Part shown: positions 9,595 to 27,861 of the stretch, piece after piece
Layout of the letters: each line of letters starts with the position of its first letter
Numbering within the stretch: position 1 is the first letter of the stretch
Assembly: GCA_020350725.1 (NCBI GenBank)
Contig: CP070719.1
Location: forward strand, 1,274,124-1,302,101
DNA from: a bacterium
Lineage (GTDB): Bacteria; BMS3Abin14
Direction of reading: 5' to 3'
DNA length: 27,978 bases
Made by a program: the position numbers and the translations under genes
Notes under the pieces: generated by a model
The model's input: the letters and a program-made list of their open reading frames with translations, nothing else
Told to the model about the DNA's origin: nothing
Database searches by the model: none

Positions 9595-10437
9595 TCAACC
9601 TCCCCGGATTGTCTCCTCGGTAAGCTGGCCCCGGTAGACGAGCAGGGCCGGTCCCTGGAGAAAGACCTCCCCCTCGACCGGGTTCTCCCCGTCGAGGTAG
9701 ATCCTGAGAACGTCCTCCCCATGCGTCTGAACCCTGACCGGCGGATCGACCAGCCTGCGCAGCACACAGATGATCGCCGCCGCTACGGCCCCCGTCCCGC
9801 AGGCCAGGGTTTCCCCCTCAACCCCCCTCTCGTAGGTGCGGATACGGATGCCTTCCCTGTCCAGGATCTCAACGAAGTTCACATTGGTCCCCGCGGGTGA
9901 GAAACGGGGATGGTACCTGATCTCCCGGCCCAACAGCTCGACGGGAACCTCTTTCAGTTTCCCCTCCGGTACGACAATAACCGTATGGGGCACACCGGTG
10001 TCGATGAATCCGGCCTCGATCTCCTCACCGCTCTCGAGTTCGAGATCGAAGCTCTTCTCCGTCCCAAAGGGCCTGGTGAGCTGGACCCTTACGCCATCGT
10101 CTTCCACCTCGGCACGGATGGGTCCGGCGATCGTCCGGAAGACCATCCCCGACCCCGCGATGCCCGACATGTTGGCGAACCTGGCCGCACACCGGGCGCC
10201 GTTGCCGCACATCTCCGCTTCGCTGCCGTCGGAGTTGAAAAACCGCCAGGAGAAATCCAGCTCCGGGTCTTCCTGGAGAAGGATCAGGCCGTCGGCTCCT
10301 ACAGACTGCCTTCTCCTGCAGACGCGGATAGCCAGGGAACGCATCTCCTCGGAACCGATGGAATGGTCACGGTTGTCAATGAGGATAAAATCGTTTCCCG
10401 TGCCGCTCATCTTGACGAACGGAATGGGGAATTTCAT
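9595..10437 (-). CDS. dapF: Diaminopimelate epimerase
   Basis: DapF interconverts LL- and meso-diaminopimelate without a cofactor, using a pair of cysteines. The 280-residue protein starts MKFPIPFVKMSGTGNDFILID. It has the first catalytic cysteine in MCGNGARC (Cys77) and the second in LACGTGAVAAA (Cys213). The intervening segment GVPHTVIVV is also typical. The ATG is preceded by a GGGAGAGG stretch. The gene is separated from lysA by a 174-nt gap filled by a heptamer array, and it runs almost directly into dapA. It supplies meso-diaminopimelate both to LysA and to peptidoglycan. Confidence 0.97.
   Translation of the reverse strand: MKFPIPFVKMSGTGNDFILIDNRDHSIGSEEMRSLAIRVCRRRQSVGADGLILLQEDPELDFSWRFFNSDGSEAEMCGNGARCAARFANMSGIAGSGMVFRTIAGPIRAEVEDDGVRVQLTRPFGTEKSFDLELESGEEIEAGFIDTGVPHTVIVVPEGKLKEVPVELLGREIRYHPRFSPAGTNVNFVEILDREGIRIRTYERGVEGETLACGTGAVAAAIICVLRRLVDPPVRVQTHGEDVLRIYLDGENPVEGEVFLQGPALLVYRGQLTEETIRGG
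9599..9605 (-). promoter_or_regulatory. Ribosome-binding site deciding the dapA start
   Basis: GGGGAGG lies 6 nt before the ATG at 9592 and would be at spacing 0 from the in-frame TTG at 9598, so the ATG is the start. The site is inside the last codons of dapF. Confidence 0.75.
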
Positions 10438-10473: not shown

Positions 10474-10621
10474 GATGTCCATTGCCTGATGTCCAACTCG
10501 GATCTCCAATTTCCAATTTCTAATGTCTAATTCTCTAATCTCCAATTTCTAATCTCTGATTTCTAATCTCTAATGTTTAATGTCTGATGTCCAATCCTCG
10601 GTTTCCAGTCTCTAACCTTCA
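10474..10621. repeat. Longest heptamer array, ending at the lysA stop codon
   Basis: Twenty-one consecutive units run in phase, all 7 nt except one of 8 nt: GATGTCC, ATTGCCT, GATGTCC, AACTCGG, ATCTCCA, ATTTCCA, ATTTCTA, ATGTCTA, ATTCTCTA, ATCTCCA, ATTTCTA, ATCTCTG, ATTTCTA, ATCTCTA, ATGTTTA, ATGTCTG, ATGTCCA, ATCCTCG, GTTTCCA, GTCTCTA, ACCTTCA. The unit GTCTCTA (10608-10614) contains the lysA stop codon on the minus strand, so the array abuts or slightly enters the gene end. It occupies nearly the whole lysA-dapF gap. Confidence 0.85.
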
Positions 10622-11862
10622 AAAAACCTCTCTCCCCTGATCAGGTCCTGGTATGTCTCGCGGTCCCGGACGACCTCGAACCGGCTGTCCCTGACCATGA
10701 CCTCCGCGCACCTGGGTCGGGAATTGTACTGCGACGCCATGGGGAATCCGTAGGCCCCCGCACTCATGACCGCAAGGAGCTCTCCCGATCCCAAACGGGG
10801 CAGCAAGTGGTCTCTGGCCAGAAAATCGGCGGACTCGCAGACCGGGCCGACCACGTCGACGACGATCGCTTCCCTGTCGGTCTTGGTCACAGGCTTGATC
10901 TCCTGGTAGGCGTCATAGAGACTCGGCCTGATGAGGTCGTTCATGGCGGCGTCAACGATGACGAAGTTCTTGGTCGCTCCCTTCTTGTTGTAAAGGACCC
11001 TGGCCACCAGGACCCCCGCGTTCCCCACGATGACCCTGCCCGGTTCGAAGATGAGGGTCCGTTCGCCTCCTCCGACCGCTTCCAGGATGGTCTCCGCGTA
11101 GGTTGAAGGAAGAGGAGGTGATTCGTTGTTGTAGACGATGCCCAGACCGCCGCCCACATCGACGTAGCGGACACTTATCCCTTCGGCCTCCAGCCGGCCC
11201 ACCAGGTCCATGATCCTTCTCACGGCCTCACCGAAGGGATGCACAGAGGTCAGCTGGGAACCGATGTGGCAGTCGATGCCGACAACGTCCAGGTTGGGCA
11301 TGTCGGCCGCCTGCCGATAGAGGGTGAGGGCTTCCGTTACAGGAACGCCGAACTTGTTCTTCTCCAGCCCGGTGGAGATATAGGGGTGAGTCTTCGGATC
11401 CACATCCGGGTTGACCCTGACCGCAATGGGTGCCTTCAGGTCCATTTCCCTGGCGATACCCTGGACGGACTGCAGTTCCTCCGAGGACTCGATGTTGAAC
11501 ATGAGGATGCCGGTGTCAAGGGCGTACCGGATCTCGTCGTCCCTCTTTCCCACCCCCGAGAAGACGATCCTGTCGGGCGGAATGCCGGCCTGCAGGGCGC
11601 GGTAGAGCTCTCCCCCCGACACGATGTCGGCCCCGGCTCCCATTGAGCCGAGCAGTTTGAGCACGGCGAGGTTGGAATTGGATTTAGCGGAAAAACAGAC
11701 GAGATGATCCACCTCGGAAAACGCCTCACTGAAGACCCGGTAATGACGTTCTATGGTCGAGGCACTGTAGACGTACAGAGGCGTTCCCACCTCCTCGGCG
11801 ATCCTCGCCACGGGGACATCCTCGCAATAGAGTTCGTTACCTTGGTAGTTGAAGTAGTTCAT
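10612..11862 (-). CDS. lysA: Diaminopimelate decarboxylase
   Basis: LysA decarboxylates meso-diaminopimelate to L-lysine with PLP, the last step of the pathway. From the ATG at 11862 the 416-residue protein reads MNYFNYQGNELYCEDVPV, a typical LysA start. The PLP lysine lies in CFSAKSNSNLAVL (Lys60). GGGLGIVY and FEPGRVIVGNAG follow, then GPVCESADFLARD, and GAYGFPMASQYNSRPR at the C-terminal end. An in-frame GTG at 11901 would add 13 residues. Neither start has a good ribosome-binding site, so the start is less certain than the gene. Its stop codon lies at the edge of a heptamer array. Confidence 0.95.
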   Translation of the reverse strand: MNYFNYQGNELYCEDVPVARIAEEVGTPLYVYSASTIERHYRVFSEAFSEVDHLVCFSAKSNSNLAVLKLLGSMGAGADIVSGGELYRALQAGIPPDRIVFSGVGKRDDEIRYALDTGILMFNIESSEELQSVQGIAREMDLKAPIAVRVNPDVDPKTHPYISTGLEKNKFGVPVTEALTLYRQAADMPNLDVVGIDCHIGSQLTSVHPFGEAVRRIMDLVGRLEAEGISVRYVDVGGGLGIVYNNESPPLPSTYAETILEAVGGGERTLIFEPGRVIVGNAGVLVARVLYNKKGATKNFVIVDAAMNDLIRPSLYDAYQEIKPVTKTDREAIVVDVVGPVCESADFLARDHLLPRLGSGELLAVMSAGAYGFPMASQYNSRPRCAEVMVRDSRFEVVRDRETYQDLIRGERFFEG

Positions 11863-11962
11863 CCAGCTGTCCGGAATACGTTTGGCGGCATTGATGGTCA
11901 CCGAAAAAGCCGAACTCTGATCGGTGATTTTTCAAAAAGAAGCGCCAATCTAGCAGAGGTTT

Positions 11963-23997: not shown

Positions 23998-24081
23998 AAC
24001 TCCAGGTTCCAGACTTCAGGTTCCAGGTAGCAAATTCCAGGTTCCAGGTCCTAATTCCTGAGATCTAATCTCTAATGTCCC
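23998..24081. repeat. Heptamer array between trmFO and xerC
   Basis: Twelve units are exactly in 7-nt phase: AACTCCA, GGTTCCA, GACTTCA, GGTTCCA, GGTAGCA, AATTCCA, GGTTCCA, GGTCCTA, ATTCCTG, AGATCTA, ATCTCTA, ATGTCCC. The array shifts from TTCCA-type words to the TCTAAT-type words seen at 2892-2928 and 10502-10593. It would lie in the leader of the xerC transcript if the nearby promoter is real. Confidence 0.85.
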
Positions 24082-27708: not shown

Positions 27709-27861
27709 AGTTCCCGGTTCACGGTTCGCAGTTGAGACCGCCGTGATTCGTGATTAGTGATTCGTGATCAGTTGACGAATCCAAAATCCAAAGTACTAAG
27801 TGATATGTGATAACTAACAGCTCAGTAGACTTATCTCTTATCACTCATCTCTTAGAACTAT
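27709..27861. repeat. Long heptamer array upstream of topA
   Basis: After four units of GTTCCCG/GTTCACG type and one 6-nt step, the array reads GTGATTC, GTGATTA, GTGATTC, GTGATCA, GTTGACG, AATCCAA, AATCCAA, AGTACTA, AGTGATA, TGTGATA, ACTAACA, GCTCAGT, AGACTTA, TCTCTTA, TCACTCA, TCTCTTA, GAACTAT, all in 7-nt phase. It lies 31 nt upstream of the topA start. The part 27705-27770 matches the reverse complement of about 2808-2875. Apart from this and block A, the 300-nt gap at the right edge holds no gene. Confidence 0.85.

Follow-up and report, generated by a model that had tools for sequence, protein, structure and literature searches.

The degenerate heptad array located between the lysA and dapF genes belongs to a class of short intergenic heptad arrays that occurs throughout the genome. 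It extends over positions 10475-10617 of the window (the whole stretch of 27,978 nucleotides that was analysed) on the minus strand, and consists of about 21 units that read NATYRGA on this strand and TCYRATN on the plus strand. About 13 of these units are good, and the outermost ones are weak or degenerate. The array is detected by autocorrelation and is called independently by TRF, and unit analysis places its best conserved core of 13 units at 10502-10593. The lysA gene (10612-11901, named from its sequence and position) and the dapF gene (9595-10437, named from its sequence), which is next in the same-strand cluster, are both located on the minus strand and are separated by 174 bases. As the preliminary description stated, the lysA stop codon lies inside the array: this TAG (10612-10614) falls in GGTTAGA (10611-10617), the first unit on the minus strand. 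The lag-7 identity of the 148 bases from 10474 to 10621 is 0.610, as compared to 29% in shuffles (z 8.3), and the identities at lags 14, 21 and 28 are likewise elevated. The lag-7 value is matched by none of 2,000 dinucleotide shuffles, the best of which gives 0.482 at any lag.

The phase of the array was originally described as strict. The array itself is confirmed, but its strictness is not, because a 6-nt unit is present besides an 8-nt unit and the ends are weak. The AT-N-TC-Y-R units start at 10475, 10489, 10502-10523, 10531-10587, 10601 and 10608, with phases of 3, 2 and 3 (mod 7). The 6-nt unit (10496-10501), identified from the unit phases and by direct reading of the sequence, shifts the phase by −1, and the 8-nt unit (10530-10537), identified from the unit phases, shifts it by +1, so that the array regains its first phase. 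The 8-nt unit is crossed by a 36-nt near-duplication inside the array (10497-10531 versus 10533-10567, 83%). Retention of the phase despite the variant units had been regarded as odd; it need not be, because in-register copying or slippage preserves the phase by nature.

The chromosome that carries the array is complete (2.78 Mb), and stretches amounting to 1.2 Mb (43%) of it were sampled. Genes in this sample were predicted by a simple home-made codon model, the array thresholds are arbitrary yet identical for all periods, and runs of 100 N at several places in L006-L025, which make simple repeat counts too high, were left out of the later tallies. The intergenic DNA of the sample contains 233 arrays with period 7, 58 with period 8, the sole other short period enriched, and 0-2 at each of periods 2-6 and 9-13, with multiples of seven also present, all these counts being inflated by composite copies. 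The seven-base step is genome-wide, and genes are excluded from it, with only 7 period-7 arrays found in the genes of the sample. At a laxer threshold, 226 of the 683 gaps of at least 40 bp, or about one third, have an array. When autocorrelation is computed over 140 kb of intergenic DNA, as the preliminary description proposed, the peak is at lag 7 (0.332 versus 0.257 in shuffles, z 76), followed by lags 14, 21 and 28, with small shoulders at 6, 8 and 15. The excess is intergenic: coding DNA shows none comparable in an initial analysis of a smaller sample, where a small residual z of 4.6 is left without the N runs. The view that something favours seven is therefore borne out, since period 7, and less so period 8, is nearly the sole short period in the gaps and the signal is intergenic. 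A contiguous stretch of 280 kb alone gives the same outcome as the larger sample, indicating that the result is not created by the extra stretches, which were chosen near known arrays. The period-8 arrays, which occur at 2597-2631 of the window and in other gaps of the chromosome, are mostly AGGGGGCG-like; some of them consist of the TCTAAT word in an 8-nt form.

The arrays on this step differ in their words. In the window, TRF detects heptad arrays of AGAACTA (1892-1939) and TCCAGGT (24001-24049). TRF combined with word-family analysis detects GAGTCCA (2548-2578, CTGGMCN family), AGTTCAC (2645-2669, GTGAACN family), AACTGGG/GTGAACN (2766-2799), and CGAATCA and CGTGATT (2806-2835 and 27742-27772, both GTGATTN family). 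A short array of the lysA-dapF word at 2892-2923 lies in a dispersed composite, the flank of which recurs at several other loci. At least five large word families, GTGATTN, CTGGMCN, GTGAACN, YTTTGGA and NATYRGA, share the seven-base step. The first four consist mainly of four-unit modules in dispersed composite elements with shared linkers, and copies of these modules are therefore not independent observations. Four units are the mode in each of these families (78/84, 45/57, 68/99 and 42/72). The NATYRGA arrays vary broadly in length without a four-unit mode, and the long ones (5-22 units) have flanks that are mostly unique in the sample. The presence of NATYRGA at such unrelated sites indicates that this word is shared in trans, through copying or selection. 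A palindrome-like element, GTCATTGC..GAAGCAATC (2730-2762 of the window), is present in 81 copies in the 1.2 Mb; in the composites it often separates the CTGGMCN array from the GTGAACN/GTGATTN arrays. Two further candidate features were rejected. A mirror architecture of the gaps is accounted for by polar composite elements, and avoidance of identity between adjacent units holds in two families, is reversed in two and is absent in NATYRGA.

The orientation of the arrays is suggestive of a polarity away from genes. Long NATYRGA arrays with unique flanks point away from the gene edge that they abut in 16 of 22 cases (p 0.05), and those within about 35 nt of a gene edge do so in 11 of 13 (p 0.02), as tallied by eye and assessed by a binomial test. 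In the composite families the polarity is strong, but it is the trivial outcome of a polar element filling a gap. General inverted pairing is absent in this genome, in which same-word neighbours are direct in 63 cases and inverted in 21. In the relative G008, three same-word neighbours are inverted and none is direct. The inverted pairs of heptad arrays in G008 are about 10-130 bp apart (L101 7377-7502, L102 13771-13947 and L061 6197-6364) and could form long imperfect stems.

The phylum sample that was compared comprises 12 species, all of which belong to one family and none of which form strain pairs. The lysA orthologues in the family are about 71-75% identical. At the same gap the word turns over: the lysA-dapF gap contains heptads of GACAGTA in G007, AAGACCA in G004, TTTGGAC in G002 and G011, and GCAGCAC with an inverted partner in G008. 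No array is seen in G003, G005, G009 and G010, in which the gap is almost absent, nor in the visible part of the region in G001 (partly masked) and G006 (cut by a contig end). Arrays touch stop codons in relatives too, in agreement with the earlier proposal that the array grows right up to the coding limit. The congeners G003 and G009 (about 86% DNA identity) differ by about 750 extra bases with arrays in one gap of G003 and by about 250 extra bases with arrays in another gap of G009. This presence of array-bearing blocks in one congener and their absence in the other indicate that arrays come and go as whole blocks.

Intergenic lag-7 peaks are weaker in other members of the family, are present in the unrelated genomes G076 and G117, and are absent from most of the other genomes sampled. 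G105 has many period-7 arrays with other words; at L177 17473-17523 of this genome, GTGAACN and GTGATCN alternate to form a 14-nt higher-order unit. An exact 24-mer of the lysA-dapF word occurs in about eight phyla, one archaeon included. We take the carriers to be Bacteroidota, Campylobacterota, Acidobacteriota, Chloroflexota, Bacillota, two CPR groups and an archaeon. Of 181 genomes of other families, 12 contain TCTAATN, 15 contain GTGAACN and 5 contain the reversed GTGAACN word, and CTGGACN is limited to this family apart from two single matches. A vocabulary shared across phyla was nevertheless rejected, because the scrambled control word TACATTN is itself abundant in four other genomes, and the sharing is weakly if at all special. 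The abundance of this control suggests that many genomes have arbitrary words, rather than that one word is common to them.

These arrays may well arise when short modules of several units are copied in register from gap to gap, a route that is tentatively favoured over fresh slippage at each site. Pieces of an existing module, comprising several units and typically about four, would be copied to other gaps and to other arrays, by template switching during replication or by short-homology recombination. Pairing in register would cause the seven-base step to be inherited and would give common words to sites whose flanks are unrelated. An insertion ending at a stop codon would be tolerated and one within a gene would not, so that arrays would reach the coding edge, and rapid gain and loss of whole array-bearing blocks would provide each species with its own words. 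We infer this copying route and near-neutrality. Some points count against or qualify the copying of modules. Local duplication also acts, as seen in the 36-nt near-duplication of the lysA-dapF array. Within a word family, certain columns vary freely and the rest are nearly invariant, which is not predicted by neutral copying alone, although descent from a small number of variable modules would produce the same pattern. Finally, module copying leaves the choice of seven as the step unaccounted for.

In the main rival explanation, the polymerase slips at each locus, inherently favouring steps of seven, and point mutations follow. As the sole origin such slippage is possible but rather unlikely; local slippage surely contributes. 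Slippage has been proposed in the literature for the heptamer excess across bacteria, seven bases being the length of DNA that contacts the polymerase (PMC4679880, PMC4692102). It fits the presence of one step common to many different words in one genome, and also the 36-nt near-duplication. It fits the result with the scrambled word as well, the abundance of TACATTN in four other genomes suggesting that the step weighs more than the word. However, the similarity of NATYRGA units is 0.766 between neighbours and 0.767 between arrays, and in the other four families the value for neighbours is within about 0.03 of the between-array value. Neighbouring units are thus no more alike than units of different arrays, which counts against fresh slippage at each site. 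Slippage also does not readily explain why one word occurs at many sites with unrelated flanks, and why most arrays end at about four units.

Recognition of adjoining 7-bp sites by a protein that reads the six conserved bases, with the free base serving as a spacer, might in principle account for the conservation, which differs column by column, but such a protein is an improbable explanation. The analogy is with ribbon-helix-helix ParB (omega), which binds the WATCACW heptads of pSM19035 parS and is fully active only on four or more contiguous heptads (PMC9499535). This functional minimum makes a binding protein attractive in view of the four-unit mode observed here, and the AATCACN family includes an ATCAC core. 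This likeness is post hoc, however, and the word of the lysA-dapF array does not contain ATCAC. The words of this genome are many and unrelated, and those of the relatives are different again, so that no single protein could read them all. An omega homologue (PF07764) was not found in the genome, which is a weak argument, because this family matched no control genome either. The parS of pSM19035 likewise consists of contiguous seven-base sites, but it differs from the arrays described here in being the centromere of a plasmid, with a single word and a protein dedicated to it.

The array could also act in RNA, where an unstructured purine-rich spacer past the stop codon might alter the stability of the mRNA or separate the translation of lysA from that of dapF, but this is quite unlikely. 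The sense strand of the lysA-dapF array is predicted to fold slightly more weakly than shuffles (z +1.26). Of 19 long NATYRGA arrays in same-direction gaps, 14 are on the sense strand, or 13 of 18 (p about 0.10) once the lysA-dapF array, which was counted twice, is corrected for. This bias is not significant, however, and the other words have no consistent strand relative to transcription. The lysA-dapF array gives no Rfam match and contains no terminator, no regulatory role was found there, and the gap is missing altogether in several relatives. That a reverse transcriptase adds repeats to broken DNA ends, or that REP-associated (Y1) transposases move them, would suit the polarity of the NATYRGA arrays and the inverted pairs in some relatives, but is hardly credible, as RVT_1 proteins are absent from the heptad-rich G000, G003, G004, G008, G051, G076 and G105, Y1 transposases are present also in heptad-poor genomes and absent from heptad-rich G105, same-word neighbours in this genome are mostly direct, and the polarity of the composite families is trivial.

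To our knowledge, reports of an excess of heptamers in bacteria date back to 2007, and there is no agreed cause. The preliminary description knew of no comparable system for such a genome, a view that is not supported: heptameric repeats are abundant in bacteria, and GGGNATC arrays are described in Xanthomonas and Nostoc (PMC4679880, PMC4692102). As cited in these two papers, heptamers outnumber the other classes of long repeats in the majority of the bacterial genomes surveyed. To the extent that this general class is characterised there, it resembles the present arrays in being seven-base, over-represented relative to other unit lengths and located mainly outside genes; the present arrays differ from it in being degenerate, in using multiple words and in lying in many cases in composite dispersed elements. 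The arrays of GGGNATC and GGGGAYT in Xanthomonas and Nostoc, which have G-tract words and have been studied as quadruplexes (PMC4692102), share several features with those described here. Their step, too, is seven bases, most of them have four units although a long tail exists, and some of their positions are conserved and others free; about 90% are intergenic, they abut and overlap stop codons, and the long ones do not recur at the corresponding genes of related species. They also point away from the abutting gene, a polarity that is only suggestive here. They differ in that NATYRGA, GTGATTN, GTGAACN and TTTTGGA contain no G-tract, that many words coexist in one genome here, and that the convergent inverted pairs common in Xanthomonas are not common in this genome. 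The TAACTGA repeats of Beggiatoaceae (PMC4679880) are likewise intergenic direct repeats of a heptamer, scattered over distant phyla. They consist, however, of one nearly exact word, with related heptamers being rare, and lie just upstream of start codons, whereas the lysA-dapF array has a different word and is placed after a stop codon. The element of Geobacter metallireducens containing GGACCGG (49 copies; PMC2700814) is also dispersed and has four tandem heptamers, but its word is different and it occurs within genes as well.

Thus the seven-base class itself is known, and what is new here is the presence of many words that are not G-rich in one genome and their fast turnover. One genome separates the step, which is seven almost alone, from the word, which is one of many and is quickly replaced. 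Explanations that depend on a particular sequence, quadruplexes and a lone binding protein among them, are weakened by this separation, which also yields a clear prediction for assays of slippage or template switching across unit lengths. It is conceivable, though on balance doubtful, that bacteria have in common an undescribed process by which intergenic arrays are produced or kept up. Such a process would use a step of seven, or less often eight, mostly irrespective of the word, and its modules, about four units long, would be able to point away from a gene edge; each lineage would have its own changing vocabulary. If such a word-independent process with a step of seven exists, the interpretation of the Xanthomonas arrays as quadruplexes would follow incidentally from one of its words.
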